A program made the position numbers and the translations under genes. Of a stretch of DNA of 64,000 bases, positions 38,560 to 53,807 are shown piece after piece. The DNA is from a virus. The DNA is taken from the IMG/VR virus record IMGVR_UViG_3300037961_005428, positions 1-64,000 of that record; one strand, written 5' to 3'. The stretch's first letter is position 1. Each line of letters starts with the position of its first letter. The notes under the pieces were generated by a model. That model did not search any database. It had not been told where the DNA came from and saw only the letters and a list, made by a program, of their open reading frames with translations.

Positions 38560-38823
38560 ATGGCTCAGCCGATGGACATCGCTTGGATGGTGTTGAAGCA
38601 AGAAGGCTATGAGGACTATGTGGACCCTACATTAGACCAATCCTCAAGTTATTATCCCCCAATCCAACCTTCGGCACCAAGTCCGGAGCCACAGGAGTAT
38701 TTTTCTTTACCTCAAAGCCCGCAGGCCCGCCTTATGAGACTGTATTCAAAGGCACAGTCTGTTGGCTACGCTAATTTGACAGATGCAGAACGGGACGAAA
38801 TAAGAGCACTGGGTGGTATGTAA
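38560..38823 (+). CDS. Cargo-tag protein 1 (small)
   Basis: 87 residues. Starts MAQPMDIAWMVLKQEG, the shared tag. A Pro/Ser/Tyr-rich linker follows, then a helical end (AQSVGYANLTDAERDEIRAL). First gene of the rightward arm. Apart from the tag nothing is recognised. Confidence 0.65.
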   Translation: MAQPMDIAWMVLKQEGYEDYVDPTLDQSSSYYPPIQPSAPSPEPQEYFSLPQSPQARLMRLYSKAQSVGYANLTDAERDEIRALGGM

Positions 38824-38825
38824 GC

Positions 38826-39293
38826 ATGCATTCGCTTGAACAGGCTTGGTCTGTCCTCAAGCAGTATGACCCTCAGCGGTCCCTGCATGGGCGCTCGGTC
38901 ATGTTTCCACAGATGCGCTCACCTACTGTAATAGTTGAGAACCGACAAGTAGGTCGGGATGGACTCCCTTTGCATACTTTGGGTAGAAACCGCGCTTCCG
39001 GCGGCTATTCACAGATGGACCCCAAGTACAAGGGCCTCTTTACACCTTATCACGAACAAGACCTACCGGGCCCGCTTCATGAAGTGAGGTTCCAGCATCA
39101 GCGTAAAGGCCGGAACCTTACACCCGATGAGCGGCTTGTCCGAGTAACGGCTGACCGCAACCAAGCGATTGACCGGGCCAACCAGTTCCACCAAGACCGC
39201 ATTGATGCCATGCAGAATTTGCCCGAGCCCGGCAGTTTTTCACGGCCTCCCAACCCGGACTTCAATCCCTTCACGATGTCCGGTGGTCAATGA
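38826..39293 (+). CDS. Cargo-tag protein 2
   Basis: 155 residues. Starts MHSLEQAWSVLKQYD. The remainder is polar and probably extended (QVGRDGLPLHTLGRNRASGG), with a helical end (RVTADRNQAIDRANQFHQDR). Overlaps the next gene by ATGA. Unknown. Confidence 0.6.
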   Translation: MHSLEQAWSVLKQYDPQRSLHGRSVMFPQMRSPTVIVENRQVGRDGLPLHTLGRNRASGGYSQMDPKYKGLFTPYHEQDLPGPLHEVRFQHQRKGRNLTPDERLVRVTADRNQAIDRANQFHQDRIDAMQNLPEPGSFSRPPNPDFNPFTMSGGQ

Positions 39294-40261
39294 TGTCCCC
39301 CCTTGAAACGGCTTGGTCTATCCTCAAAGCACAAACTGAACTGGGTCAACATCACCCCGACTTCCCTTCTTCACAGGGCCCGGTGCTTGGGTACCACGGT
39401 CGCAATTTCTCAACCAAGTTCAATAACCCCTTTGGCAATTTTTACGACGCCAAGCGTGAGGTGTTTGATGACGACTTTGAGGCTATGCAAGAAGCCGTCG
39501 CCAACATCAAGGCAGCGCAACTTCTTCAAACGGGCCTTGTGCCAACTGACACGGCTGAATCGCAAGTCGGTAGTGGGCGCTTCAATCAATATGACGACAA
39601 GGGCGTACACAATTACGGAGTGGACACGAAGTTCAATCCCGACATCCCTGCCTCTATTTCGGTGGCAGTTGAGCCCCACACGGCGATTGGCTATGCAGAA
39701 GGTGCGAGAGGCTACAAGGACTCAAGCGGTCTGCCCGGCTTCTACGGGATAAGGGCTGGAGCCATGCAAAACGCTTTGCCCTTGGACGAGCCTTTGCGCC
39801 GCTACAAAATAGGTGATACGGACGATTTCATCTACAACAATCAGCGATACCGCTACATCCCGCACGGCATCGCTCCCAACCAAATGGTCCGCTTCGCTGA
39901 TGCTCAATCCATGGAAGAGTTTGATGAAGGCGTCACAAGTCCGTGGTACGGGCGTGAAAGAAAGCGTGCGCCTTCGCGCTTTATTGGAGTCGGCCCCGGT
40001 CAGTTTAGGGGTAGGGACCTTCAACTCTTGGAAGAGGGCAAAATGAATGTGGATGAGTTTAGAAGTCCCGAGCGGGACACTCAAAGGGTGATGGAGTCCG
40101 AACAATTCATTCGTGACCAAATTGCTCAGTATCAGCAACAGCAACTCGCCCAGCAGCAAGCGATGGCCCAACGGCAGGCTGACCAGCAAGCCGAGCAAGC
40201 GTTTAGGCAGCAACAAATGGCAGCGGCACCTCAACAACAACTTCCAATCGGGGTGCGGTGA
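39290..40261 (+). CDS. Cargo-tag protein 3, possible ADP-ribosyltransferase fold
   Basis: 323 residues. Starts MMSPLETAWSILKAQ. VLGYHGRNFSTKF (near 31-43), ISVAVEPHTAIGYAEGARG (near 121-139), GFYGIRAGAMQNALPLDE and YRYIPHGIAPNQMVRF are in the order expected of ADP-ribosyltransferase-like enzymes (Y-x-G start, a strand with A-x-x-Y-A, then G-x-Y-x-V). The catalytic Glu is not certain. The C-terminal 60 residues are Gln/Ala-rich. If real, it would parallel T4 Alt, a packaged ADP-ribosyltransferase; treat as tentative. Confidence 0.5.
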   Translation: MMSPLETAWSILKAQTELGQHHPDFPSSQGPVLGYHGRNFSTKFNNPFGNFYDAKREVFDDDFEAMQEAVANIKAAQLLQTGLVPTDTAESQVGSGRFNQYDDKGVHNYGVDTKFNPDIPASISVAVEPHTAIGYAEGARGYKDSSGLPGFYGIRAGAMQNALPLDEPLRRYKIGDTDDFIYNNQRYRYIPHGIAPNQMVRFADAQSMEEFDEGVTSPWYGRERKRAPSRFIGVGPGQFRGRDLQLLEEGKMNVDEFRSPERDTQRVMESEQFIRDQIAQYQQQQLAQQQAMAQRQADQQAEQAFRQQQMAAAPQQQLPIGVR

Positions 40262-40296
40262 AGAAACTTTATCTCTTCGCCCTCACTGCGACACAC

Positions 40297-41499
40297 ATGG
40301 TCGCAGCCTTGGACGCCGCTTGGTCGCTCCTCAAGGCTTTGGATGAGCAGCAGTTGTACACACAAGCCAATCCCGGCCCTGCGGCACCAATGGGCTTCGG
40401 CGATGTCCCATATCCGCAATATGAGCAAATGCGACTCGGCACTGCCCATCCGGCGATATCGGGTTTACTTGAGCGTGTAGAGCACATGAGGGCCAACCCC
40501 TACTCCGGAACTCAAAAAGACCATCCCCAAGATGTTTACGACCCCGAAAAGCGGTTTGAAAGGTTTGGTAGACTTGGTGGAGGTTATGGGAGCCTCATTC
40601 ATAGTTTTGGCAACCAGCCTTCTCTCCGTGTAGACTCGGGGCAACTGGCTAATATGATACAGGACAGTGGTATGCGCCATCACTTCGCTACTCAAACAGA
40701 CGAGGAAGCACTTAGGGAAATGCAAGACAACCGGCCAAGGCATGATTACACCCCTCTTCCGTATATACCACGAATGACGGGTAGGGCTGACCCCACAACG
40801 GTAGAGGGTGTACCCGGTGTCAAATTCGGCCCTCCACCTATCGTTTATGACAACTTCCAAACACGGGATAGCGAGGGAAACTTGGTAACGAGATTTGGTA
40901 GCCAGCAAAAACACCCAAGGTATGATGCCCATTATGATGAGCGACAAAACCCATTAACGGGCGTCATAGATGATTTTGAATTTGGGCCAATTCAATTTCC
41001 TCAAGCGCCAATTCCGGGCGTACCGGGCGGCGCTCACCATCCCAGTCTTGACACACCTCCCGAGGTCGGTATGGTTGGACAAATAAGACCACAACACCCT
41101 TCCGCGAAAGCCTTTGGCGCACCAATCAATATCCTAAGTACATCTCGTGGTAGAAGTGGTGTTGCACAAAGTGGATTTTATCCCCCCTATAGCCAACACC
41201 TTAGAGACATGCGAGGCCGTGGTGAAGACGATGACATCACTTCGTGGCACCTTTCCCGACAACCTTCTACGGATATTTACCAAGGACATGGTGGTGACAA
41301 AGTTGCCAACTTGCGGGGAGGTGCTGACCCCTTCCCGATGAAACAGTTGGGCCAAGAACTGGCTCAAGGCGCTCGTTCTCCCAATCGCCTAAGTAGGGCT
41401 CTAAGTAGCATTTTTAATCGCTTCCGCCGCCCTCAAGTTAATGAGCCTCAGTTTGATTTCGCCTTTGACGAACCACAGTATGATTTGAGGGGGCTGTGA
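40297..41499 (+). CDS. Cargo-tag protein 4
   Basis: 400 residues from ATG 40297, which places MVAALDAAWSLLKALDE at the extreme N-terminus as in its neighbours; a GTG at 40258 overlapping the previous stop would add 13 residues and has a better ribosome-binding site, so the start is open. Proline-, glycine- and histidine-rich with few helices (QFPQAPIPGVPGGAHH), ending in a basic helical part (LSRALSSIFNRFRRPQ). Unknown. Confidence 0.6.
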   Translation: MVAALDAAWSLLKALDEQQLYTQANPGPAAPMGFGDVPYPQYEQMRLGTAHPAISGLLERVEHMRANPYSGTQKDHPQDVYDPEKRFERFGRLGGGYGSLIHSFGNQPSLRVDSGQLANMIQDSGMRHHFATQTDEEALREMQDNRPRHDYTPLPYIPRMTGRADPTTVEGVPGVKFGPPPIVYDNFQTRDSEGNLVTRFGSQQKHPRYDAHYDERQNPLTGVIDDFEFGPIQFPQAPIPGVPGGAHHPSLDTPPEVGMVGQIRPQHPSAKAFGAPINILSTSRGRSGVAQSGFYPPYSQHLRDMRGRGEDDDITSWHLSRQPSTDIYQGHGGDKVANLRGGADPFPMKQLGQELAQGARSPNRLSRALSSIFNRFRRPQVNEPQFDFAFDEPQYDLRGL

Positions 41500-41503
41500 T
41501 AAC

Positions 41504-42133
41504 ATGAACCCAATAGACGCAGCATGGTCAATCCTCAAGGCTGACCCCAATCTCCGTATGGTGCACGGCGGCGTCTACCCCAACGCCCGTTTCGGTGGAC
41601 GGAGTCAAACCATGCACCCTGCTATCGCTGGGATGATGCAAGGTATCGGTGAGGGAAGAAGTCCCATACCGATGGAAGACATTGAGGGCGTTGATACTGG
41701 TTTTTTTGACACACACACTCCCGCTCGCTACCGAACTTGGCCCCAACCGTATAGTGAAGCACACGGCAATTTAGACAGTGGAGACCATCTGTACTCTATG
41801 GGAAGCCTCCGGTCCATGGTCCCGGTTAGATACCAAGGCGCTCCCAAAACTCCCGACCGACTTCTTTACGAGATGTCAAAGGTTTCTCCTTACAGAATGT
41901 ACGATACTGCAAACCTGCAACAAATTGATGACCCTTCTCAAAATGAAGAGTTTATGCAGGCTTTCAATGCCTATCCCGAGAAGTTGCGTCAATTCTATGA
42001 GCAACAAGGAGACATGGATGTGCACCCGCACACTGTTGCCCGAATAGCCGGTCGCCAAGATTACGGTCGTATAGGTCGCACGGGCAACCCCGACAACATT
42101 CAAATGATACCCGACATGATGGGAGCGATGTGA
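41504..42133 (+). CDS. Cargo-tag protein 5
   Basis: 209 residues. Starts MNPIDAAWSILKADP. The junction GTGATAACATGA before and inside its start is repeated at the next gene (42138), and the tag-coding DNA is similar, so 5' ends seem to have been copied. Rest of the protein unrecognised. Confidence 0.6.
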   Translation: MNPIDAAWSILKADPNLRMVHGGVYPNARFGGRSQTMHPAIAGMMQGIGEGRSPIPMEDIEGVDTGFFDTHTPARYRTWPQPYSEAHGNLDSGDHLYSMGSLRSMVPVRYQGAPKTPDRLLYEMSKVSPYRMYDTANLQQIDDPSQNEEFMQAFNAYPEKLRQFYEQQGDMDVHPHTVARIAGRQDYGRIGRTGNPDNIQMIPDMMGAM

Positions 42134-42137
42134 TAAC

Positions 42138-42506
42138 ATGAGCCCAATGGATGCCGCTTGGGCGATACTCAAGGCTGACTTTTATAGCGATAAGCAACGA
42201 GCCCTTGAACAAGCCCTTGGTCCTGTGTACGGTCATGTAAGAATGGCTCGGGGCAAAGCACAAGAAGAAGCCGAGAGGATGCCGTACTCAACAGACCCCA
42301 AGGTTAGGGCAACACAAGGTCCGCTTGACTATCTGTTTGCGGGAATGGACATTGAGCCGGAGTTGATGAGGCCACCATCACCTTGGCCTAACCCTCCTAC
42401 TTACGCCGCTCCTCCGCCGGCTGACCCCGAGTTCATGGCTCGCATCAAGGCTGACGAAGAAGAGTCGCAACAGCGCAAAACCGAGCGTGAAGAACGGAAG
42501 CGTTAA
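42138..42506 (+). CDS. Cargo-tag protein 6
   Basis: 122 residues. Starts MSPMDAAWAILKADF. Pro-rich middle (PPSPWPNPPTYAAPPPADPE) and charged helical tail (KADEEESQQRKTEREERKR). Unknown. Confidence 0.6.
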   Translation: MSPMDAAWAILKADFYSDKQRALEQALGPVYGHVRMARGKAQEEAERMPYSTDPKVRATQGPLDYLFAGMDIEPELMRPPSPWPNPPTYAAPPPADPEFMARIKADEEESQQRKTEREERKR

Positions 42507-42632
42507 GTAGGGGATGCCCAACATAGGGCACTAAGGGAGAGGCGGTACCCTCCAGTCGTGTGTTCTTTTGGGCTCTGAATCACTTCTCGCATTTCTTCAT
42601 TCCGCCGCCTCTCCCCCCTTTCGGTGAAAAGT
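42507..42632. other. Intergenic region with long inverted repeat
   Basis: GGGAGAGGCGG (42535-42545) and CCGCCTCTCCC (42605-42615) are perfect complements 60 bases apart, and TGCCCAACATAGGGCA (42515-42530) is a small hairpin before them. The segment could end one transcript or shape the leader of the next gene; no gene is visible inside. Confidence 0.45.
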
Positions 42633-42767
42633 ATGCCACGGCGCAAAAGTCCTGCTTGCCCTTATTGTCAGCAACAACCTACTCAGCGACTGTACTCCAA
42701 AGCCGGCGGTACTTTGCACGGCGTGGCTTGGCACTGCCCCGTGTGCGAGTGCATGTGGAAACTTTGA
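42633..42767 (+). CDS. Small zinc-ribbon protein
   Basis: 44 residues: CPYC (9-12) and CPVC plus C (35-40), with GGTGA six bases before the ATG. Basic start (MPRRKSPA). Read directly from the sequence. Possibly nucleic-acid binding. Confidence 0.6.
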   Translation: MPRRKSPACPYCQQQPTQRLYSKAGGTLHGVAWHCPVCECMWKL

Positions 42768-42778
42768 TGTAGCCACCC

Positions 42779-43186
42779 ATGCTGTCACGCCACATGGCGG
42801 ATGCTATAGAGTGGTTGACCGACGAGGAAATCATCGGAAAGACCGACTGGTCCGATGTGGCGTTTTGCGATTGTTGCTCGCCACTTGAGATTTCTATGGC
42901 CGTTGTCAAGGCGAAGCGAAAGTCCAAGCCTTTTCACGGCTACAATCCAAACAAGCACGCCAAGACCGGTGGGCTGAACGCCAAGGGTCGGGCGGCTGCG
43001 AAGCGCAAGACTGGGGCCAATCTCAAGCGCCCCGTCACCAAGAAGCCCAGCAAACTCAAGCGAGGTAGCAAAGCCTCCAAGCGACGCAAGTCATTTTGTG
43101 CCCGCATGTCGGGTGTCAAAGGTCCGACCAGCAAGAAAGGTAAACTCACTCCCAAGGGAGCCGCTTTGAAGAGGTGGAACTGTTGA
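42779..43186 (+). CDS. Basic DUF6321-like protein with tag-like segment
   Basis: 135 residues. SPLEISMAVVKAKRK (34-48) aligns with the cargo tag, preceded by FCDCC. The rest is very basic with GGLNAKGRAAAKRKTGANLK and KSFCARMSGVKGPTSKKGK then RWNC, the conserved blocks of a small domain frequent in marine phages and MGII-type viruses (DUF6321 as I recall it). Probably binds DNA. A GTG at 42857 is a credible later start that would bring the tag near the N-terminus. Confidence 0.65.
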   Translation: MLSRHMADAIEWLTDEEIIGKTDWSDVAFCDCCSPLEISMAVVKAKRKSKPFHGYNPNKHAKTGGLNAKGRAAAKRKTGANLKRPVTKKPSKLKRGSKASKRRKSFCARMSGVKGPTSKKGKLTPKGAALKRWNC

Positions 43187-43377
43187 ACTGTGACTGTGAG
43201 CATTGCTTTGGTATGCAGACGGCTTGGGACCTTCTTGAGAAGAAATTGTGCCCGGCTGGTAAAGCGGCGGCGAAGCGGAAGTTCAAGGTGTACCCATCGG
43301 CTTACGCTAACGGATGGGCCGTACAATACTGCAAGGGCAAGTTCCGTGGCAAAAAGAAAGGGGGCAAAAAGAAATGA
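43183..43377 (+). CDS. Small basic protein with tag-like segment
   Basis: 64 residues from a TTG that overlaps the previous stop and has GAGGTG upstream; ATG 43213 is the alternative. NCDCEHC leads into MQTAWDLLEKKLCP, a variant of the cargo tag. Then AAAKRKFKVYPSAYANGWAV and a Lys-rich tail, a block seen in small virion-associated proteins of marine phages. Probably packaged and DNA-binding (inference). Confidence 0.6.
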   Translation: MNCDCEHCFGMQTAWDLLEKKLCPAGKAAAKRKFKVYPSAYANGWAVQYCKGKFRGKKKGGKKK

Positions 43378-43922
43378 ATCCAATGGACGCAGCGTGGAAT
43401 GTGCTAAAGGCACTACCAAGTCGTGAAGTGGTGCAGAACAGATACCGTTTTACTGGACAAGGGCACCCATTTTTGGATGAAAAAGGTAATCCCACCCCCG
43501 AAACCAAAAGAGATTTGGTTGAGCAAATGGGGATTGGAACAAGGCACCCTGCTTTGAATCCAGCGCATGTCATTGAAAGCGTGAGTGGCAGACCCACCAA
43601 TATCACAGAAGGTTCACACCTTAGCCCAATAGAGCCCACTGACATTTTGCGCTATCCTACGGGCGACAGCATAACCGGTGCTGAAACTGGCAGAGCGGAG
43701 TTGGAAAACACGCGTCAACGACGAATTAACGAAAGAAGTCAACGCCGTTTGACGGGAAATACATCCCCTCCAAGGCTCATTGACCATCATCGTTACACAC
43801 ATTTGCCCCCCGGCAACTACTATGGTGGCAACCTTCCAAAAAATAGCGCACTCAGCGACGAAGAAATGGAAAACTTGCGTCAACAAGCGCAACAGATGCC
43901 CTTTTCGTATGAAGGTCAATGA
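43374..43922 (+). CDS. Cargo-tag protein 7
   Basis: 182 residues from the ATG overlapping the previous stop (ATGA). Starts MNPMDAAWNVLKALPSREV. The remainder is polar (DSITGAETGRAELENTRQRR) with no recognised domain. Confidence 0.6.
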   Translation: MNPMDAAWNVLKALPSREVVQNRYRFTGQGHPFLDEKGNPTPETKRDLVEQMGIGTRHPALNPAHVIESVSGRPTNITEGSHLSPIEPTDILRYPTGDSITGAETGRAELENTRQRRINERSQRRLTGNTSPPRLIDHHRYTHLPPGNYYGGNLPKNSALSDEEMENLRQQAQQMPFSYEGQ

Positions 43923-43931
43923 GGGATAAAA

Positions 43932-44138
43932 ATGCACGCTCTTGAACATGCTTGGCGCATCATCAAGGGCAAAGAGGATGCTCCAAATTATCGCAAAGCC
44001 ACGGGGCCAAAGAAGTGCGGCAACTGCAAGGCTTGGGATTCTTCAAAAACTGACGACCCTATGACGGGGTATTGTGAGTGGTACGATTTTACTTGTCGTG
44101 CCGACCATGTGTGTGATGCTTGGGCGGGGAAGAAATGA
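43932..44138 (+). CDS. Cargo-tagged Cys-rich (HiPIP-like) protein
   Basis: 68 residues. Starts MHALEHAWRIIKGKE. Then KKCGNCKAWDSSKTDD, YCEWYDFTC and HVCDAW: Cys-29, 32, 47, 53 and 59 with Trp/Tyr around them, the pattern of small high-potential iron-sulfur-like proteins found in phages. Metal type is not determinable here. Confidence 0.6.
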   Translation: MHALEHAWRIIKGKEDAPNYRKATGPKKCGNCKAWDSSKTDDPMTGYCEWYDFTCRADHVCDAWAGKK

Positions 44139-44719
44139 GTGAACAGTGCCCTTGTTGCAGCGTGATGGTTGTCAAAGACCTTAACCGCTGGTTCAAGGAG
44201 AAGTGGGTGGATGTGTCTCGCAAAGACAAGGACGGCAAGCACCCACCTTGCGGGCGCAAGAAGGCCAAGAAGGGGAGCAAAGGTTACCCTAAGTGCCGGC
44301 CGTCAGTCAAGGTGTCAAGCAAGACGCCGAAGACCTCCGGTTCTATGACTGAGGGGCAGAAGCGTGCGGCGACCAAGCGTAAGCGGTCCAAGAAGCAAGG
44401 AGTTGGCGGAAAACCGACGATTGTCAAATCACTGGTGCTCAAGCGACCTGTCAGTCCCGAGGCCAAGCGTCACAAGTTGGAATACGACACCAAGTACGAG
44501 TCTACGCCCGAGCGTGTCAAGTATCGGGAAGAACTTAAGCGTGAACGCCGACATAGAGGTATTGACGGTAAAGGGGGTCCGGACATGAGTCACACGAAAG
44601 ACCACACCCTTGTCGCCGAAGACCCTCACACCAACAGAGCCCGCCACTTCAAAGAGCGAGGCACACTCAAGGGCGACCCTATGGACATCGCTTGGCTCCT
44701 TGTCAAAGGTGAGTGGTGA
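44135..44719 (+). CDS. DUF5872-like basic protein with C-terminal cargo tag
   Basis: 194 residues from the ATG overlapping the previous stop. CPCC (5-8), WVDVSRKDKDGKHPPCGR, KGYPKCRPS and QKRAATKRKRSKKQGVGGKP are the blocks of the DUF5872 domain of marine viruses. It ends DPMDIAWLLVKGEW, the cargo tag at the extreme C-terminus instead of the N-terminus. Strongly basic overall, so DNA binding is likely. Confidence 0.7.
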   Translation: MSEQCPCCSVMVVKDLNRWFKEKWVDVSRKDKDGKHPPCGRKKAKKGSKGYPKCRPSVKVSSKTPKTSGSMTEGQKRAATKRKRSKKQGVGGKPTIVKSLVLKRPVSPEAKRHKLEYDTKYESTPERVKYREELKRERRHRGIDGKGGPDMSHTKDHTLVAEDPHTNRARHFKERGTLKGDPMDIAWLLVKGEW

Positions 44720-44964
44720 TGACCGAATACCCCTTTGACAGTTGGGGCTTTCAGTTCGTGCTCACGCTGGACGACCACCTGCAAATCATGCAGGACTTAC
44801 TTGACCACTACGCTGACATCATTGACATGCTGGAGGACGCCTGCGACAACAACGATGCGTTGCTCGCCGACCTCGTGGACGCTCAAGAGCAATACATGAT
44901 TTTGCGACAGGCTTATGAAAAAATGAAACATGGGGGTAATTGGTTGCATGCTGAGTCCAACTGA
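44719..44964 (+). CDS. Small acidic helical protein
   Basis: 81 residues; ATG overlaps the previous stop. Long acidic helix (LDHYADIIDMLEDACDNNDA, then LVDAQEQYMILRQAYEKM), a probable coiled coil. Its end overlaps the start of the next gene by 17 bases. Scaffold or chaperone for the neighbouring tagged protein is possible. Confidence 0.55.
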   Translation: MTEYPFDSWGFQFVLTLDDHLQIMQDLLDHYADIIDMLEDACDNNDALLADLVDAQEQYMILRQAYEKMKHGGNWLHAESN

Positions 44965-46072
44965 CGCCGCTTGGTCTGTCCTTGAAGAAGGGCACCGTGT
45001 GGACAAGGCCCTTCCGTTCCTCATTCCGGCGGCGATGTTAGCCTATGGCGGCTATCAAGGTGCGAAAAATGTCAAGGAAAATCGTATCACTGACCCCTTT
45101 TTAGGGGTGGTCGGTACCGAAGGCAATGATTCACTCGGTAGTAACCTTGCCGAGTTTGGGACAGGTTTTGCACAGGGCGTTGTCCCCGTCAAGGGTGGAG
45201 GCTTTTTGGCCCGGAAGTTTGGTGGCCGCCGTGCAGCAAAGCGTGCAGCAGCACGAGAAGCCGCAGAAAAGGAGGCGGCTGAGGCTGCGGCCCGCCATCA
45301 AGCGTTGTCTGCTCAACAGCGAAGGGGTGTGCTACAGCGGGAGAATCCCGAAGTTGGCTATGTGTTTGGTGAAGTAGCCCCTTATGTTTCTCCTTCCCAA
45401 CTTGGTGCTGTTCGCCAAACGATGAACGCTGCCCAAGCACGGGCTGCCCGGCTGGCTCCGAGAGCACAAGCACCAGTCGCTCCGTTGACACTGGGTCAGC
45501 GTGCAAAGTTGGTTGCAGCCACAGGCGCTGGTGCAGCCACTGCTTATGCTCCCGAAATTATGATGGCACTTGGGCTCGCTGGGAGTCCGCCCACCAGTAC
45601 AGAATTTGGAGGATTTGGTGCAACAGGCACAGGCGGTTTCGGCGCAGGGCAGGGTGGTCAACAGGGCTTCCAACTCGCAGGTCAACAGTCCGGCGGCGTT
45701 GGTGGTGTGCAAAATGTCGGTGTGAGCGGTATGGCTGACCACGACATTTTCCAAGGCAAGCAATTCCAGTCGGCTCCGACATCATCAAATATGCAAGCCC
45801 CTTCCATCAAACAGAAGGGGACCCCTATGTCGCTCGGAAACAATCTCATCAACTCCACCTTGAGTGTAATGGAACGCAACATTATGAAAGCCAGTGTGTG
45901 TGAACGCTGTGGCAAGAAAGGCTGCGTCAACAAAATGCACTGCATGGCGAAAGCCGATGATGGCAAAAAGAAAAAGCCAGCCCACGGCATGGTCATTGTC
46001 ATTGGCTCCAAAGCCGGCCCGGGCCCGTCAACGAACGGCAAGCGGGACGACAAAAAGGACGACAAAGAGTGA
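44948..46072 (+). CDS. Cargo-tag protein 8, glycine/alanine-rich
   Basis: 374 residues from ATG 44948. Starts MLSPTDAAWSVLEEGHR. Then a hydrophobic stretch (LPFLIPAAMLAYGGYQGA), an Ala/Arg/Glu helix (AKRAAAREAAEKEAAEAAA), a Gly/Gln-rich region (GGFGATGTGGFGAGQGG) and a Cys-rich basic end (CERCGKKGCVNKMHC). The mosaic suggests a virion component that contacts membrane and nucleic acid. Unknown family. Confidence 0.6.
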   Translation: MLSPTDAAWSVLEEGHRVDKALPFLIPAAMLAYGGYQGAKNVKENRITDPFLGVVGTEGNDSLGSNLAEFGTGFAQGVVPVKGGGFLARKFGGRRAAKRAAAREAAEKEAAEAAARHQALSAQQRRGVLQRENPEVGYVFGEVAPYVSPSQLGAVRQTMNAAQARAARLAPRAQAPVAPLTLGQRAKLVAATGAGAATAYAPEIMMALGLAGSPPTSTEFGGFGATGTGGFGAGQGGQQGFQLAGQQSGGVGGVQNVGVSGMADHDIFQGKQFQSAPTSSNMQAPSIKQKGTPMSLGNNLINSTLSVMERNIMKASVCERCGKKGCVNKMHCMAKADDGKKKKPAHGMVIVIGSKAGPGPSTNGKRDDKKDDKE

Positions 46073-46119
46073 TACTCAAGGGCTGTTTCGCTCCCTCTCA
46101 GCGTCCAGCCCACCTTAGA

Positions 46120-46164
46120 AGGTTTTATTTGGTCGTGTATTTTGGGGTTATATGAGAGGATTGT
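46120..46164 (+). promoter_or_regulatory. Possible late promoter
   Basis: GGTTTTATTTGG (near 46126) and GTTATAT (46147) in a 92-base gap before the ATG at 46165; AGAGGA precedes the ATG. A TATA element at TTTATTTGG would start transcription about seven bases before the gene. Weak, position-based call. Confidence 0.35.
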
Positions 46165-46701
46165 ATGTCAAGCGGTAGCCAAAGCGTTGACCAAAGTGAA
46201 ATTCGGCTCATGGGGCTTATCCTCATGCAGTCGCTAAATGTAGGACTTGCCATCGGTGTATTCAACGCCGGCATTTGGATTGATTTAGAGAGCACGATGC
46301 TGAATGCATTTACTTATGCGATGGGTGCGTTTTTCGTCCAAGGCATAGCGTATTACTTCTTCAAAATGTTCTTCCAACAGGGCATGGACGACAAGGCTCG
46401 CCAGTCCGAGATGGAGCGAGAGCGGCGCAACCGCTACCGGGCTATGGAGATGACTTTTGAGCGCCGCCGTCAAGACATGGAACTTCGCATGCAAGAGGCA
46501 CAACTTGAACAAGAGTTGCGCTGGATGGAAAACAACCCCGGAAAAATGCCACCGATGAGCCTTTCTGACCCTATTTCGCTTGACACTGGCAACTTTAATC
46601 CCGAAAAGGGCGATAAGACCCTTTCATTGGGTGTCTCCTTTGACGAGGAGAAGCCACTCACCAATCGTGGGGCTGATGGCAAGTTCAAGAAGAAGGAGTG
46701 A
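46165..46701 (+). CDS. Membrane protein with coiled-coil tail
   Basis: 178 residues. Two hydrophobic segments (LMGLILMQSLNVGLAIGVF, 15-33; MLNAFTYAMGAFFVQGIAYY, 45-64), then a long charged coiled coil (SEMERERRNRYRAMEMTFER) and a polar tail. It heads a short set with two more membrane proteins and a GTPase. Probably virion or cell-membrane anchored. Confidence 0.65.
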   Translation: MSSGSQSVDQSEIRLMGLILMQSLNVGLAIGVFNAGIWIDLESTMLNAFTYAMGAFFVQGIAYYFFKMFFQQGMDDKARQSEMERERRNRYRAMEMTFERRRQDMELRMQEAQLEQELRWMENNPGKMPPMSLSDPISLDTGNFNPEKGDKTLSLGVSFDEEKPLTNRGADGKFKKKE

Positions 46702-46943
46702 GGCCTGTGGGCTGGCTGTTCAAAACGCCAAGTGATGATGCAACGGAGTCAACGCTTCGTGCTATTCACATGGCGAACACTTTGGACACCGCTTATGAGC
46801 GCACATGGGGCTGGGTTAAAACGGTCATTTTCTCGTTTATCAGCGCCCTGTCTATCAGTGCCTTTGAGTATCACAACGATTGGAGTTTTTGGGAGCATAC
46901 TGTTAACTGGCTTGCCAACGAGGTTATGGGTTGGTTTGAATGA
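46698..46943 (+). CDS. Small membrane protein
   Basis: 81 residues from GTG 46698 overlapping the previous stop; GTG 46707 is equally possible. One hydrophobic segment (TVIFSFISALSISAFEYH, 42-59) followed by Trp-rich NDWSFWEHTVNWLANEV. Stop overlaps the GTPase start. Confidence 0.6.
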   Translation: MRPVGWLFKTPSDDATESTLRAIHMANTLDTAYERTWGWVKTVIFSFISALSISAFEYHNDWSFWEHTVNWLANEVMGWFE

Positions 46944-47656
46944 GTGCAGCAGCGGGCTCTGCCATGGTGGGTGGCGTTATTTTTGCCAAGGAACTTTACC
47001 ATTATTGGGTTCCCCGCAGGGTCGGTGTGTATGGTCCACCGCTGGCTGGAAAGACAACGCTGGACAAATACTTGACCACGCCCGGTGAAATGGAAGACAT
47101 TCCTCTTGACAAGCGCACAACTCACACAAAGGTGCTTGGAAAATTCCTTCTTCCCCGTGCCAGTCGTAAGCGTGTGAAGTACAAGGGTGAAACTCGTGTG
47201 ATTCATTCCGCAGATATGGGCGGCGAACAGCGGTTTTGGAACCTGTGGGTGGACGATATGGTCAATCGGGGCGTAGAAGCAGTGGTGTTCATGTTTGATG
47301 ACCGTGCAAATGCAGGTGGAGATACCACCGTTGACGCTGTTGGCGGCTTCAAATTCTTGGTGGACGCTCTCATTTACCGTCAATATCGCTATAGAAACCT
47401 ACGAAGTTGGTTGAAAGGCAAGAAGTACACGCCCAAAGTCATTCTTTTGGTTGCTAACAAAGCCGATAAGTGGTGGGATGAGCAGGCAAATACGCTGTGG
47501 CAGCAGCAGCGTCTTGGAGAACATCGCATTTTTGACCCGTTTCGGGAAGACCTTATTCGTCTACAAAAGGCCGGTATACCTACACGAAGGGGTATGATGG
47601 CCACCCGAATTGGCTGGAATGTGGAAAATACGATGGTGGATTTGCTGTCAACATGA
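46940..47656 (+). CDS. Ras/Arf-like small GTPase
   Basis: 238 residues. P-loop GPPLAGKTT (32-40), switch I threonines KRTTHTK (58-64), switch II DMGGEQRFW (92-100, the D-x-x-G box), and NKADKWW (173-179, the N-K-x-D guanine motif). A small hydrophobic N-terminus (AMVGGVIFAKELY) precedes the G domain. It is surrounded by small membrane proteins within the virion arm, ATGA-coupled to one. Small GTPases of this type switch partners on and off at membranes; which process it controls in a virus is unknown. Confidence 0.8.
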   Translation: MSAAAGSAMVGGVIFAKELYHYWVPRRVGVYGPPLAGKTTLDKYLTTPGEMEDIPLDKRTTHTKVLGKFLLPRASRKRVKYKGETRVIHSADMGGEQRFWNLWVDDMVNRGVEAVVFMFDDRANAGGDTTVDAVGGFKFLVDALIYRQYRYRNLRSWLKGKKYTPKVILLVANKADKWWDEQANTLWQQQRLGEHRIFDPFREDLIRLQKAGIPTRRGMMATRIGWNVENTMVDLLST

Positions 47657-47667
47657 GGTGAACGAAC

Positions 47668-48651
47668 ATGAATGGATTACGACGCTACGGGCAGGTCCCG
47701 CAACAGGGAAATGGCAACTTATACGCTCTTGACGCTAATCAAATGGCGGCTTTGTCGCAACAAGGGAGCCTTTCGCACGAACAATTGATTGAAATGCAAG
47801 GTGCGCAGCAAGGAATGCGAGAAGCGGCTGCAAAAAGCAACATTGAGGTGCCAAAAGTCAATTTTTACCCCAGTCGGCACCCCGATTCACGAAAAGCACG
47901 CAAAAAAGACATCAAACAGGCCCGAAAACTGCTCAAACCGAGCAAAAGAAGCATTTTCAACCCCTTACGGTGGGTTGGAATGAAGTATCGGTACAACAAA
48001 TTGCATGAAAGGTGCGTTGTGGACGGCTGTGACTGCGTTGAACTCATCAAATACGACAATTTGTATGCTAAAATCTGTGATGAGGACACTGGAGAGAGCC
48101 TTTGGGACCTTTATTGGACAAATCCGGTCACAGGAGAGGTTCAAGCCTTCGTAGCGGCTGAAAATGTCACTGATGGGCGCAAAATGAGGGGTACATACTG
48201 CCCCGAACACCTTCATTTGTACCATTTATTGTGTAAATGGGAGGATGAGAACGACAAAGTGCGCCTTAACAGCAAATCCGGTATGCGAGAAATGGTCAAA
48301 AAGGGCGTTTCTACGGTCGCTGTACCCATTTCAATGGTCAAAAAGAAGGACAATACACCCCAATTTTTGGCCAAATATGAGCCTTTTTTCAAGCAATTAG
48401 AGCAGGATTCACGCCAAACAAGCGGTATTTCCATCCTTCATTACCAAAATCCGGTATCAAAAATGAATGATGTGACCATGATTGTGTTTGATTTGCGCAT
48501 TTTTCAGCAGGAATTAGGTCAAATTGACCAACAAAACCCGCCCAGCATCCTTGATGCAGTGGGTAAAATGGGTATTACCCTCCCCGATTCCCCACCTCTC
48601 CAACAGGTTGAAGAAGAGAATGGCCCTCAGTTTGGCCAAGGGCAGGCTTGA
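47668..48651 (+). CDS. Hypothetical protein of the GTPase cluster
   Basis: 327 residues; GGTGA seven bases before the ATG. Gln-rich start, basic middle (SRKARKKDIKQARKLLKPSK), Cys residues at RCVVDGCDC, then YCPEHLHLYHLLCKW, together a possible zinc site. The C-terminal part contains YQNPVSKMNDVTMIVFDLRI. Family not recognised; encoded directly after the GTPase and probably a partner. Confidence 0.55.
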   Translation: MNGLRRYGQVPQQGNGNLYALDANQMAALSQQGSLSHEQLIEMQGAQQGMREAAAKSNIEVPKVNFYPSRHPDSRKARKKDIKQARKLLKPSKRSIFNPLRWVGMKYRYNKLHERCVVDGCDCVELIKYDNLYAKICDEDTGESLWDLYWTNPVTGEVQAFVAAENVTDGRKMRGTYCPEHLHLYHLLCKWEDENDKVRLNSKSGMREMVKKGVSTVAVPISMVKKKDNTPQFLAKYEPFFKQLEQDSRQTSGISILHYQNPVSKMNDVTMIVFDLRIFQQELGQIDQQNPPSILDAVGKMGITLPDSPPLQQVEEENGPQFGQGQA

Positions 48652-48665
48652 AAGCAGGTGAAAAC

Positions 48666-49295
48666 ATGTTATTCGGAAACAATCAACAGCAAAGCGGTGC
48701 ACTGAACCTTGGTGCGCCAGCCAATACTCCACAACAGCCCTTCCAATTCGGTCAGCAGCCGCCCAGTGCCATGCAAAACTTTGGCCAAAGTGCGTTTGGT
48801 GGCAGTATGATGCAGGGTATGGGTATGAATCCGGGCATGATGCAGCAACCCGTGGCCCCGCCCAGTGAAACTGAAATTCAATTGGCACTCATGCGCTCTG
48901 TCGCACCTATGGACAGATTCGTGGCATCAGCCCAAATGGCCACGCTTGTGCAGATGCTGAACGACCTTGTTAGTTTCTCAGTGCTGGAAGTGATGAAAAA
49001 CGCCACTTTTGTCATCAACGAGGACGATGGTACCATGAAATTGGATGTTACTTCACTGCCTTCCAACCTTCAAACCATGAGTGCGGAGAATGTCACCAAT
49101 CAATTTAACCAACTTCAAAGCACCAGTCAGCAAAACATCCAGCAAATGGAGATGCAGCAGCAACAAATCCTTGCTATGGCTCAGCAATCGCTGATGGGTG
49201 GGGCACTTGCAGCGGCTATGGCTGACGAAGGTATGATGCAAAAGGTGGGTGGCGGAGTTGGCTCCTTCGCTCGTAGTATGTTGGGAGGACGATGA
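48666..49295 (+). CDS. Gln/Met-rich helical protein
   Basis: 209 residues from ATG 48666 with GGTGA just upstream; an upstream TTG was rejected. Gln/Asn/Gly/Met-rich first 70 residues (MMQGMGMNPGMMQQPVAP), a central helical domain (MDRFVASAQMATLVQMLNDL), and a Gln/Met-rich helix (NIQQMEMQQQQILAMAQQ). Low-complexity termini suggest a structural or scaffold-like protein. Confidence 0.55.
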   Translation: MLFGNNQQQSGALNLGAPANTPQQPFQFGQQPPSAMQNFGQSAFGGSMMQGMGMNPGMMQQPVAPPSETEIQLALMRSVAPMDRFVASAQMATLVQMLNDLVSFSVLEVMKNATFVINEDDGTMKLDVTSLPSNLQTMSAENVTNQFNQLQSTSQQNIQQMEMQQQQILAMAQQSLMGGALAAAMADEGMMQKVGGGVGSFARSMLGGR

Positions 49296-49296
49296 T

Positions 49297-49548
49297 ATGG
49301 TAGATAGTGGTATACCGGGATTTTACTATGGCTTTGCCATGTCAACACGCGACATTTTTGCCCCAAAGAAGAGCGTCATTGTAGATATGGTGATGGTACA
49401 GGTTTTGACCATCATCGTCACCCTTTCACTGGTGTTGTTGACGGGCTCGGGTAAGTTGTCTTCGGACACAATGGCTTACATGATGGGAGCCATGATGGGT
49501 GCGATTTTGCTTGCTACGGGGATTTACACCCGTATTTCACAACAATAG
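49297..49548 (+). CDS. Small two-segment membrane protein
   Basis: 83 residues from ATG 49297. Hydrophobic segments VDMVMVQVLTIIVTLSLVLL (about 29-48) and AYMMGAMMGAILLATGIY (about 60-77). The third membrane protein of this group. Confidence 0.6.
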   Translation: MVDSGIPGFYYGFAMSTRDIFAPKKSVIVDMVMVQVLTIIVTLSLVLLTGSGKLSSDTMAYMMGAMMGAILLATGIYTRISQQ

Positions 49549-49800
49549 TCACCACTTGTCTTGTGGACAGGTGGATGATTTGAGCGAGGCTTTTGCTCGC
49601 ATGAAGCATCCACAGTCTTTGCACCGTGTACCTGTCCAACTTGGGCACTCTTGACAGATAGCGAGTCTGCGACTCCGCTCTTCGGGACTTACTTTTCGTC
49701 GCAAAGCCACATCTCTTGCGGCCTTTGATAGCGAAACAGCCGTCTCCTTTGTCATCGGGATTCCGGCGACTTTGACATCCATTTTGGGCAGTCTTGGCAC
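49549..49800 (-). CDS. Small zinc protein of DUF6171 type, opposite strand
   Basis: 83 residues. SRRLAICQECPSWTGTRCKD followed by CGCFMRAKASLKSSTCPQ and DKW matches the phage pattern R-x-x-x-C-x-x-C-P-x-W...C-x-x-C-G-C-F-M-x-x-K-x...C-P-x-x-K-W (DUF6171 as recalled). It is the only minus-strand gene in the rightward arm and abuts the convergent membrane-protein gene without a gap, so it has its own promoter, probably in 49801-49858. Confidence 0.65.
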   Translation of the reverse strand: MPRLPKMDVKVAGIPMTKETAVSLSKAARDVALRRKVSPEERSRRLAICQECPSWTGTRCKDCGCFMRAKASLKSSTCPQDKW

Positions 49801-49858
49801 AGTGTTTCCTCGCTGTTCTTTCCTAAAGGCTTATCGTTGGGCGTAGCATGGACCACGC

Positions 49859-50569
49859 ATGGGAGGTCGGCAGACCAAGCGTTCTTGCCCTTTTTGCCAA
49901 GACCCCGACCGTGACAAACTTGAGATGAGCATTGCTCAAGGCATCGCTGATGTTCGCACCATGGACCGCGATAAAGGCTGGCGGGCCAACACGGCAGAAC
50001 GCCACATGAGAAACCACGCTGGTGAAAATTTAGAAGGTTCCAACTATCGCTGCGTGATATGCACGGACGACCACCGAAGCATGTACGAAGTCGCTTATTT
50101 TGACGAGGGCATGACCACCGAAGAGATTGCCCAAGAGTTGAATTGCAGTGAGGCTACAGTCTACAAGCACATGAAAGAGCACTTCCAGCCCATCGTCAAG
50201 CAAAGTGCATCGGCTATTGTGTCCATTAAGGTGGGTCAAGAGGCTGATATCCTGCGACACAACACTGAGCGCCTCAATGAAAAGTTGTCTCGCTACATGG
50301 ACGAGGTCAGCATCCACGATGACGGGGCTGTTTCGGACATGGTTAAGTTGAGCAAAGAGATTCGTGAGTCCATCAAGGACTTGACTTCGTTCCAAAAGGC
50401 GTGGGTTGAACCCGAGGAGAAAATGGTCGCAAACACCATCAACATCCTCAAAGTTGAAATGGCGAAAGAAAGTCCCGATACTTGGAAGCGTGTCAAAGAA
50501 GCCTTGCTCACACAGGAAGGCGACGAAATTGACATCAGCGGCATGTTAGAGCAGGAGGATAGCGCATGA
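49859..50569 (+). CDS. HTH protein, terminase small subunit candidate
   Basis: 236 residues. N-terminal CPFCQDPDRD and a later CVICTDDH give two CxxC pairs; MTTEEIAQELNCSEATVYKH (about 84-103) is a clear helix-turn-helix; the C-terminal half is helical (GAVSDMVKLSKEIRESIKDL). An HTH protein encoded a few genes before TerL and the portal is usually the small terminase that recognises packaging sites. A transcription regulator is the alternative. Confidence 0.55.
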   Translation: MGGRQTKRSCPFCQDPDRDKLEMSIAQGIADVRTMDRDKGWRANTAERHMRNHAGENLEGSNYRCVICTDDHRSMYEVAYFDEGMTTEEIAQELNCSEATVYKHMKEHFQPIVKQSASAIVSIKVGQEADILRHNTERLNEKLSRYMDEVSIHDDGAVSDMVKLSKEIRESIKDLTSFQKAWVEPEEKMVANTINILKVEMAKESPDTWKRVKEALLTQEGDEIDISGMLEQEDSA

Positions 50570-51618
50570 CCAGTAGCATGGGTACCGGCACTGACACCCG
50601 CATGTACTCCCCTCGGTCCGAATCGGACCACCTGTACTCGGACGGTGAAGACTACCGACACGGTAAGGGCTCGCCCGAACACGAGGACGAGATGAAAGAC
50701 AAGAAAATGAAGGAGAAGGAGGAGCGTGTCAAGACCCGTGAACTCCCCCATCTCAAGTTCAACATTGAATCGGCCGAGCAGGACATGGGTATGCCTGCTC
50801 CTATGCCGATGGACGAGCCACAAGAGGACATGATGGAAGAAACGCCCATGGCTCAGCAGGGTGAACTTAGCGCTCTTACCGGTTCTCCGGGCACCGGCTC
50901 ACCCGAAGCCAGCATTAGTTTTGGTGCACAGGCGCTCAGCCCGTATGGTCAGCAGACCATCATGGCCAGCGAGCCGATGGACATCGCTTTCCAACTGCTC
51001 AAGCGAGATGGCGACTTCTCCACTCAGCCGTTCAAGGCTCCCCCCGGTGGCCGCTCTCGTCAAAAACAAGCAACATCCATGCGTGCTAAGCGACAGGCTC
51101 GCACACTCAGCCCTCGCACGGAAAAGGGTGGCATGGTTAATGCTGATAAAGCCGTTGAGATGTCTCACCTTGGCATTGATACCAAGCAACCCCTGCGTTT
51201 GTTCCCCGACAAATACCGTCAAAGCCTTGGTACTCGGGCCATGCAGGCCAATCGTGGTAACATTGCGCTCCCCTATCAAGGGCACAACATTGAGCGCCGC
51301 ACTCCTTTCAAGCCCATGACCATGAAGTCCGAACTTCAAGAAGTGCAAATGCTTCTCAAGTCGGCTTCGGGCTACCTTCACCTCAGTCAATTGCGCAACA
51401 TTCTGCGAGACTTGAAGCGAGCCATCGCTCGCAAGGAGTCAGCCAAGAAAGCGCCGCCGTCCGGCAAAGGCACTTCCAAAGAAGGCGAGGCTGGGCACCG
51501 TGATGGTGAAACCACTCAGCCCCAAGGGCGCACTGACAATGTAGAGGCTGATGAGTTCCGTTCTGCCGGTGCCTCCGGTCACCAGTTTGTGAGCAGGGGT
51601 AGCGGGAGGACGGCTTGA
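50566..51618 (+). CDS. Virion-region protein with internal cargo tag
   Basis: 350 residues; start overlaps the previous stop. Acidic/charged N-terminus (EDEMKDKKMKEKEERVKTRE), a Met/Pro-rich linker, then MASEPMDIAFQLLKRDGDF near 132-150, the tag in the middle of the chain. After it a basic Pro/Gly/Ser-rich region and a helical segment (SGYLHLSQLRNILRDLKRAI). If the tag is cut or bound here, the N-terminal 130 residues may be a removable part. Confidence 0.6.
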   Translation: MTSSMGTGTDTRMYSPRSESDHLYSDGEDYRHGKGSPEHEDEMKDKKMKEKEERVKTRELPHLKFNIESAEQDMGMPAPMPMDEPQEDMMEETPMAQQGELSALTGSPGTGSPEASISFGAQALSPYGQQTIMASEPMDIAFQLLKRDGDFSTQPFKAPPGGRSRQKQATSMRAKRQARTLSPRTEKGGMVNADKAVEMSHLGIDTKQPLRLFPDKYRQSLGTRAMQANRGNIALPYQGHNIERRTPFKPMTMKSELQEVQMLLKSASGYLHLSQLRNILRDLKRAIARKESAKKAPPSGKGTSKEGEAGHRDGETTQPQGRTDNVEADEFRSAGASGHQFVSRGSGRTA

Positions 51619-53807
51619 TGTTCCGTGTTCACTACTCGTCGGACTCACTGGCCAAGAGCCGTGGCGGGTTTGACATTGTGGACACGCTTCACCGCACATG
51701 GAACCTCATGAAGCAGCAGATGGTGCTTCGCAAGTCCTACGGCCTGTACCACATTGGCGAGGATGAGACGCACCCGATTCGCCACTGGGCACCCGAAGAA
51801 GCATTCAATCCACCCGAAGACATTGGTTGGTACGACCAGTTTGAGGGGCCCGAAGGCATGCGGGCGCACCACCCGCCGTTTGGCCACGATTTCAAAACCG
51901 GCCGCCTCCTTCATCGCACTCGCAACGGGCAAACTGTTCCCGAAAGCGCCCACCCGCTTGACTACATGATGGGGCACATGCATCACAAAGTGCGAGAACA
52001 TTTCATTAAAAACGGTGTTAATCCGGACGCTACGGTTGAAAGTGGTGAGCCTATTTGGTCAATGGACCATGTCAAACACATGTTCAATCACGCTATCAAC
52101 ATACACAACAAGACTGGAGATAACCTCCCTAATGTAAACAGTGTGCTATGGCGATTGAACACCACGAGCGGGTTTGACGGGGACAGTGTCGGCAGTGAAC
52201 GACAGGCCACAACGGATGATGGCCGACCAATTAACTACTCCACGAACATGGGGAACATGCACGATTTAGAGGGCGCTGACAAAGGAATGTGGATTGATGG
52301 TGGTGTCCATCCCATGTATAAGGACACGGCCCGAGTAGCGCAATTCACTTTTGACATGTACGAAAAACTGCTCGGCATCCCTATGCCGAAGGTTGATGAC
52401 TTTGCTTACCTCACCAGTTCCAAAGTCCCTCTTCAGAGCATGACTTTTGGACGAGTTCGTCCGTTGAGGCGGGAAGAGGCTGAGGAGCATTTTGGCGAAG
52501 GTGGAAGCGGTATGATTCCCGGTCACAAGTCGGGGAAAGTTGTTGAAAATTATCACCCGCTGGATGTAGCGCACTTTGCTCCCAAGGCGTTGTTTGCTAC
52601 TCCGACACGAAACTTGGGGGCTAAGCAACGAGCCCAAGGTGAAGATTCGGCTGAAATCGCATCTCGTGCTAACGAAATTATCCGAGAACTTGGCGAAATC
52701 GGCATTAACATCACTCCCGAAGAAGCCATGCAATACGCAGCCATGCCCATTTCACAATTCTTGATTGGTGGGACGGGACACCAAGTGAAGGCCGGCTCAC
52801 GAGCACCAGCCATTTTGAGAGGAGTGGCAGCATCACTTGGCGTGGATATGGAGTCGGGTATGTATAAACGGGTTCGGGATTCAATTGGAACTCGCAGAGG
52901 CGCTTCAAAGAACAGAGGACTTTCTCGCTCTCGTGATTTGTACGCTATCCCTTGGGTGCACTCACTTAACCTCCTTGCATCGGGTCAAGCCGAGAATCAA
53001 CAGGATGCTTGGATGCAGGCACTTGACAACTTTCGCAACGCAGACTACGACCACAAAGACCATGCTTATGACGAGGCAAACCACGACGCATACCTCCAAT
53101 TCGTCAATGCGTTCCGTAATACCGACGGACATAGAGGACAAGTGTCTCAAATCACTGGTAAACTCCCCGAGGCTCACAAAGACCATCCTCATCACGACAT
53201 TCACTCGTCTGTACCTCCACATTGGGAGGGGCATGTACACGCTCTGCCAGCAGGAATTTCGCCAACGGCTGACCGGGTACAGGAAGTCACTGCCAACATG
53301 CTGGCGCAAAATAGAAGAGAGGAGCCACCCCGTAAACGAGCCATGGAGGATGCCGCCGCTGCTCCTGTCAGTATGGAAGAACTTCAAGCGGCTCGCTCTC
53401 AATTGAACAACCCTTCGCAGCGCGTAAGGGAGGCTTCTGCGGTCTTACCCCAGCCGACTTATGACCTTGAAGGCAATCAAGGGGTATCTCGCCAACAACG
53501 ATTGGACGACGGTAGCATCATCACTTCTTCTGAAGAGCGCACGGTTAGCGACCTGCTCAAGACCATGGAGCGCATTCAATTCAAAGAAGCAAGTCAAGAC
53601 GCTGTGGTCAAATCACTGGCCCAGTATCGGTCCCGAATCACCAAGGCTGACGATGTCAGTGCCGTAGCCAAATCGCTCGGCATCAGCGTGATGGATGTTC
53701 ACGGCATCTACCACTCACACGGCGATTGGCACCGTGTGGCAAGCGACTGGAATGTCGGTCCCGAAATCGTCAAGGCGGTCAAGGTCACCTTTGGGGGTGG
53801 CGCTTGA
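51618..53807 (+). CDS. Large virion-region protein with near-N-terminal tag-like segment
   Basis: 729 residues from ATG 51618, overlapping the previous stop, with GGGAGGA upstream. IVDTLHRTWNLMKQQ (about 20-34) resembles the cargo tag. No known domain; His-rich regions (HHPPFGHDF, HKDHPHHDIHSSV) and a helical end (ITKADDVSAVAKSLGISVMD). Located two genes before TerL; could be a minor capsid or internal head protein. Confidence 0.6.
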   Translation: MFRVHYSSDSLAKSRGGFDIVDTLHRTWNLMKQQMVLRKSYGLYHIGEDETHPIRHWAPEEAFNPPEDIGWYDQFEGPEGMRAHHPPFGHDFKTGRLLHRTRNGQTVPESAHPLDYMMGHMHHKVREHFIKNGVNPDATVESGEPIWSMDHVKHMFNHAINIHNKTGDNLPNVNSVLWRLNTTSGFDGDSVGSERQATTDDGRPINYSTNMGNMHDLEGADKGMWIDGGVHPMYKDTARVAQFTFDMYEKLLGIPMPKVDDFAYLTSSKVPLQSMTFGRVRPLRREEAEEHFGEGGSGMIPGHKSGKVVENYHPLDVAHFAPKALFATPTRNLGAKQRAQGEDSAEIASRANEIIRELGEIGINITPEEAMQYAAMPISQFLIGGTGHQVKAGSRAPAILRGVAASLGVDMESGMYKRVRDSIGTRRGASKNRGLSRSRDLYAIPWVHSLNLLASGQAENQQDAWMQALDNFRNADYDHKDHAYDEANHDAYLQFVNAFRNTDGHRGQVSQITGKLPEAHKDHPHHDIHSSVPPHWEGHVHALPAGISPTADRVQEVTANMLAQNRREEPPRKRAMEDAAAAPVSMEELQAARSQLNNPSQRVREASAVLPQPTYDLEGNQGVSRQQRLDDGSIITSSEERTVSDLLKTMERIQFKEASQDAVVKSLAQYRSRITKADDVSAVAKSLGISVMDVHGIYHSHGDWHRVASDWNVGPEIVKAVKVTFGGGA

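Follow-up and report, generated by a model that had tools for sequence, protein, structure and literature searches.

The first 64,000 bases of the 96,499-base IMG/VR virus record IMGVR_UViG_3300037961_005428, referred to as the window in the following, encode a series of unrelated proteins bearing variants of one short peptide of 12 residues, here called the tag. This tag is real and not a product of chance, it is conserved as a peptide, belongs to a single virus lineage, is combined with exchangeable protein modules and lies on genes of characteristic position and strand. Judged from this context, it is probably a position-independent signal of one archaeal tailed-virus lineage which loads proteins into the head, with the cargo being injected together with the genome. 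Packaging, a receptor in the core or scaffold, cleavage after the lysine (K) of the tag and injection are the steps that we infer, and the function is well supported by context but unproven.

The tag and the viruses that carry it

A profile of 15 columns was built from 247 tag instances of other IMG/VR contigs, which were among the matches listed of a DNA pattern scan, with the window being outside the training set. It matched the window 11 times at scores of at least 20 and 12 times at scores of at least 14, compared with no match at either threshold in 40 shuffles of the open reading frames (ORFs) of the window. A scan of related viral genomes, proposed as a check in an earlier note on this DNA, resulted in 145 matches at scores of at least 14 in 13 genomes, compared with none in their reversed ORFs. 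The consensus reads M-x-[PA]-[FMIL]-[DEN]-x-A-W-x-[LVI]-L-K (in its shortest form M-x-P-F-D-x-A-W-x-L-L-K), and the information of the profile falls off immediately past K, where a mild preference for A is left. The codons used for A, L, D, and K are mixed across the tags, and selection therefore acts on the peptide and not on the DNA. If helical, the tag is amphipathic (mean hydrophobic moment of 0.53 compared with 0.33 for shuffled residues), with F/M, A/W, and L sharing one face of the proposed helix. A weak window match at 37408 (score 14.3), lying in an antisense frame, is probably due to chance.

Among 48 tag-bearing records, each longer than 40 kb, the core motif occurred 293 times compared with three times for a reversed-pattern control. 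The major capsid protein of the window virus was found in 38 of them (62-90% identity), while nine of the remaining 10 records feature its PolB (38-62%), one of these together with the portal protein, and the last record has 21 ORFs in common with the group. This places the tag in a single virus lineage. A search starting from the capsid protein instead led to 27 records, often fragments, of which 18 have the motif, with 50 matches compared with five in the control. The window virus itself possesses an HVTV-1-like major capsid protein, an S78 protease, PolB and an RFC-like clamp loader. Its capsid protein is 31-33% identical to those of the Haloarcula viruses HVTV-1 (33%), HCTV-5, and HCTV-1, and a search of the PDB gave no close solved relative. 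Magroviruses belong to the clade of the HVTV-1 major capsid protein, as do other marine viruses of archaea (PMC8651126). The lineage comprises archaeal tailed viruses with an HVTV-1-like capsid, probably magroviruses of Poseidoniales (MGII); we infer this last label from capsid kinship and the published clade.

The earlier note had named an equal occurrence of the motif in host cytosolic proteins as evidence that would speak against its proposal. In a prokaryote collection of 84,980 genomes (257 Gb), a start-codon pattern gave 14 matches at a chance estimate of about 15. None comes from an archaeon, and no match is a convincing tagged gene; behind the matches, open frames extend over 93 residues at most, and some break within the motif. 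A host-derived motif is ruled out by this lack of a convincing tagged gene. In the virus genomes, about 5-16 tag sites occur per genome, 116 of 117 tags from 11 genomes lie on the strand of the capsid gene, and the tag appears to be confined almost exclusively to late-strand virus genes.

Cargo, modularity and possible maturation sites

The segments behind 461 tags fell into 224 clusters, including 149 singletons. For alignment and family scans, 80 tagged proteins were used, each representing a different cluster. The statement of the earlier note that tagged proteins share nothing downstream held in this alignment, with the tag K as the sole invariant column and the tag M, A, and W being nearly invariant. 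Scans with Pfam and PHROGs revealed no confident replication or transcription family among the 80 proteins. Families recognized by Pfam were DUF6321, the HD domain, the DnaJ zinc domain and, with a weak match, LIM, while the PHROGs were mainly unknown families, with two weak matches (antitermination-like and ParB-like, E about 7e-4). One cargo cluster of 32 members is ADP-ribosyltransferase-like: one member matches Pfam PARP (6.4e-5), and for the window member at 39290 the top Foldseek matches were mainly ADP-ribosyltransferases, none of them significant (E of at least 0.18). In this cluster, a second motif (RQTTLGEFHPDFPSPxGxV..YHGT) directly behind the tag was observed to be more conserved than the enzyme core. 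Further cargo includes HD phosphohydrolase, basic DUF6321/DUF5872, and DUF7140-like modules, and the longest tagged proteins reach about 950 residues. By their predicted types, the ADP-ribosyltransferase-like, HD phosphohydrolase, and basic DUF6321/DUF5872 proteins would fit injected effectors.

Two cargo families are known from marine bacteriophages in untagged form, and the phage module starts where the tag ends. For the phrog_7595 module, the proteins of Roseobacter and Synechococcus phages start with M-AKKDPRL, whereas the tagged version reads MAGDMFESAWQLLK followed by TKKPDPRL; likewise, the HD module starts just past the tag. The use of the tag at both termini and internally, as described in the earlier note, extends to multi-module proteins with a tag ahead of each module, often in the form [TS]GEPMDLAWRLLK, as in a protein of about 830 residues from genome G021 with five tags. 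Elsewhere, the same modules occur as single N-terminally tagged proteins, with the match starting at the tag; e.g., a protein ordered as tag, ParB-like module, tag and APVYTDDNPPP module (L068) compares at 92% identity with one consisting of tag and APVYTDDNPPP module (L036). As the tag is kept at each junction as well as at extreme C-termini, it behaves as a portable docking peptide and not as a domain.

A likeness to possible head-maturation sites was found at the end of the tag. The prohead protease is a Peptidase_S78 protein, and its comparison covered the best 60 of 96 aligned relatives plus divergent genomes. An invariant [ILV][LVI]K closes its variable leader and is followed by A, S, or G, a linker of variable length and the catalytic core. 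Directly behind the domain and ahead of an indel-rich stretch stands a second invariant motif, ILK[EQM]. The capsid protein in turn features an invariant [ST]xxLLKAD or SGDILKAD. The tail of the tag, x-[LVI]-L-K-[A/G/E/M/Q/S], resembles these protease-flanking and capsid K sites. In HK97, the model for this type of head maturation, the cut occurs at K103/S104 (PMC10275583); for the capsid protein of HVTV-1, no N-terminal sequencing was found in the literature. The likeness between tag tail and maturation sites is a correlation, and the tag may possibly be cleaved after K.

Tag sites and late genes in the window

The nine N-terminal tags from 38560 to 44948, the tag at 15817 far from them and the tag at the C-terminus of the protein at 44135, all listed in the earlier note, were located in the sequence. 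All tag sites given as ranges in this paragraph and the next lie on the plus strand. The cluster begins with MAQPMDIAWMVLK (38560..38598, gene 38560-38823, score 27.8), MHSLEQAWSVLK (38826..38861, gene 38826-39293, score 29.2) and MMSPLETAWSILK (39290..39328, score 36.0), the latter belonging to the ADP-ribosyltransferase-like protein (gene 39290-40261). It continues with MVAALDAAWSLLK (40297..40335, gene end 41499, score 27.1), MNPIDAAWSILK (41504..41539, gene 41504-42133, score 40.1), MSPMDAAWAILK (42138..42173, gene 42138-42506, score 39.1) and, further downstream, MNPMDAAWNVLK (43374..43409, gene end 43922, score 38.3). The tag MHALEHAWRIIK (43932..43967, score 25.8) precedes a DUF7140-like Cys protein (gene 43932-44138) of a cargo cluster with 17 members, with the DUF7140 match (0.0072) being below the cut-off. 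The C-terminal tag GDPMDIAWLLVK (44672..44707, score 21.4), followed by GEW and the stop codon, ends a DUF5872/phrog_6437 protein (44120-44719; DUF5872 4.9e-10). The tag MLSPTDAAWSVLE (44948..44986, gene end 46072, score 11.2) is present as claimed, with E in place of the K that is almost invariant elsewhere (SPTDAAWSVLEE); K or Q occupies this position in relatives, and homologues read SPIDRAWSVVK. Far from the cluster, MDPVDVAWSILK (15817..15852, score 28.4) starts a lone gene of 267 residues (15817-16620) and is kept in the homologues of G015 and G021. This gene stands alone among minus-strand genes, and the N-terminal part of its product resembles a kinase fold by eye (GAGMNQVVFGQSGNPDVVKV), with no match in the Pfam and PHROG scans.

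Variants had also been suggested for four further places. Those of the genes at 42779 and 43183 score low on their own, yet they turned out to be degenerate real tags whose homologues have full forms (SPSELAWAVIKAKKKSKPFHG; MKPFEIAWDSLEKKLCPEGK). The former, CSPLEISMAVVK (42875..42910, gene 42779-43186, score 5.5, SPSELAWAVIK in homologues), stands before a DUF6321 module (4.6e-15), and the latter, MQTAWDLLEKK (43213..43245), before a DUF5872-like module (KKLCPAGKAAAKRKF), with MKPFEIAWDSLEKKLCPEGK and MGGAMDTAFQILKGD in homologues. The internal motif of the protein at 50566 (EPMDIAFQLLK) was borne out by at least eight homologues, in which a GEPM[ED]xAWSxLLK-like stretch occupies roughly this position; this tag, SEPMDIAFQLLK (50968..51003, score 20.5), lies in a conserved late protein (50566-51618). 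The supposed tag of the protein at 51618, TLHRTWNLMKQQ, has a score of 5 and is common only to the closest relative, with other homologues lacking it, and this protein was dropped from the tagged set on the basis of the homologue comparison.

Downstream of the tagged cluster and on the same strand, the terminase large subunit (54745..56247; phrog_38 4.6e-61, Terminase_6C) and the portal protein (57600..59348, plus strand; phrog_18178 2.8e-70) are encoded. The protein between them (56302-57618) has an HNH-endonuclease PHROG match in its C-terminal part, and a coiled-coil-like protein with a tag seems to lie in roughly this position in G001. Within the late cluster, the protein 46940-47656, judged by eye, is P-loop GTPase-like (GPPLAGKTT) and recalls small GTPases of the Ras/Arf type; it gave no match in Pfam and PHROG scans. 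A protein of 1943 residues (60552-66383; L006:552-6383) lies between the portal and the prohead protease; one stretch resembles ATP-dependent DNA ligases by eye, Pfam and PHROGs gave no match for the portion within the window, and the corresponding area of HVTV-1 includes a large "zeta toxin" gene. Besides, CCWGG (CCTGG/CCAGG) is absent from the window compared with 98 copies of CCSGG, and it is depleted 7-8 fold across the 13-genome set, where CCSGG is not depleted. This points to a host restriction system that recognizes CCWGG and is avoided in this way, or to modification of the DNA.

Proposed head loading compared with other readings and known systems

According to the favored reading, the tagged proteins would be produced late in infection together with the head proteins, and the amphipathic helix would dock to a core or scaffold component, with the C-terminal region of the protease, the capsid protein and the 50566 family as candidates. 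A large and rapidly exchanged set of effectors and DNA-associated proteins would thereby be enclosed in the prohead, where the S78 prohead protease may cut after K, releasing mature cargo and splitting multi-module proteins, before the cargo is injected along with the DNA into the next cell. A more far-reaching version, somewhat short of an even chance, is that the tag is a position-independent virion "zip code" doubling as a site for the maturation protease: effector polyproteins with a tag ahead of each module would be loaded, split after LLK and injected as mixed enzymes, with modules being swapped between viruses by recombination at the tag. Several points weigh against head loading and the associated cleavage. 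HVTV-1 has the same capsid type and no tag in the 100 kb read of its 102-kb genome, the conservation of the K sites in protease and capsid protein could have other causes, and a cut after K would not usefully remove C-terminal tags. Moreover, one window tag (44948) has E at the K position, and modelling of the two-module protein L068 with AlphaFold failed (mean predicted local distance difference test score of 36).

The strongest rival, which we regard as unlikely, is that the tag recruits late proteins to a hub outside the virion, e.g., a host complex, a membrane site, a virus factory or an assembly chaperone, and that these proteins act unpackaged within the same infection. Short position-independent helices are typical of docking motifs in general, most cargo is without known function, and the evidence at hand comes from sequence and not from particles. 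Nevertheless, the almost exclusive placement of tagged genes on the late strand, the restriction to one capsid lineage, the internal tag of a conserved late protein whose gene neighbors that of the terminase and the likeness of the tag tail to sites in the prohead protease and the capsid protein all argue for the head. The invariance of K, the end of information at K and the occurrence of multi-tag, multi-module proteins would also be expected of a pure processing site, at which the prohead protease or another one, by cutting after LLK, activates proteins or separates them from each other without any loading. This is improbable, as P-F-D and A-W are constrained up to nine residues ahead of K, beyond the needs of a protease site, and a cut at C-terminal tags frees only a few residues. 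Still less probable is a loading into the tail tube or onto the baseplate. The N-terminal signals of payloads of contractile injection systems do load unrelated proteins, but tags at C-termini and between modules, tagged proteins of up to about 950 residues and a likeness to head-maturation sites rather than tail proteins speak against it. The probability that the tag arises by chance, from an ancestral domain common to the proteins or from a repeat at the DNA level is practically negligible, and nothing found speaks in favor of it. Chance is ruled out by the lack of matches in shuffled window ORFs and in the reversed ORFs of 13 genomes, a repeat by the varying codons and a common folded domain by the alignment of 80 tagged proteins with nothing shared beyond K, to which the C-terminal and internal use is added.

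The earlier interpretation, an independent loading tag of an archaeal virus resembling the capsid-targeting signal (CTS) of phage T4, is partly supported: its core idea passes every available test, and the location of the tagged proteins in the virion is a prediction. If head loading holds true, the injected proteins of a major uncultured group of archaeal viruses, i.e., hundreds of mostly unknown families, could be listed from sequence alone. This would open a way to test how marine archaea are taken over by their viruses and would provide a portable signal to load foreign proteins into an archaeal virus head.

Among known systems, HVTV-1 (Druskaviridae) is similar in its related capsid protein and prohead protease and differs in the lack of the tag. 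The propeptides of phiKZ and SPN3US are cut after acidic residues. Several head and ejection proteins of these phages have leaders that are cut by the prohead protease (PMC7411985). Their cut sites differ from the one considered here, and no common 12-residue helix of the present type is known from them. The cargo-loading peptides of encapsulins are short, terminal and portable, and bring unrelated enzymes into an HK97-fold shell. In contrast to the tag, they serve a bacterial compartment, are usually C-terminal, have few cargos and use the shell protein as receptor. For DarB of phage P1, the N-terminal residues suffice to bring a foreign protein into the head (PMC9024508). There, a single protein is concerned, compared with many unrelated cargos here.

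The closest likeness is to T4, whose internal proteins are diverse defense proteins with the conserved CTS alone in common (PMC3012670). In both cases, one short peptide is attached to unrelated, often small basic or ADP-ribosyltransferase-type proteins, in T4 IPI-IPIII and Alt (PMC3012670). For the present tag, too, a loading into the core of the prohead is predicted, and the prohead protease may remove it. As in the T4 type, one peptide is found on diverse cargo (224 clusters) and on late-strand virus genes, with no convincing host protein. The T4 CTS is strictly N-terminal and found on few proteins, whereas the present tag is mostly N-terminal and additionally internal and C-terminal, at about 5-16 sites per genome. 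The predicted cut is after K here, while that of T4 is at an acidic site. Common descent with the T4 CTS, which was compared by description only, looks unlikely because the present tag occurs only in archaeal viruses whose capsid is HVTV-1-like. The open-access literature searched, outside of which most subscription journals lie, contained no account of such a tag in an archaeal virus. The tag is thus real and widespread, and apparently a so far undescribed variant of T4-type capsid targeting.

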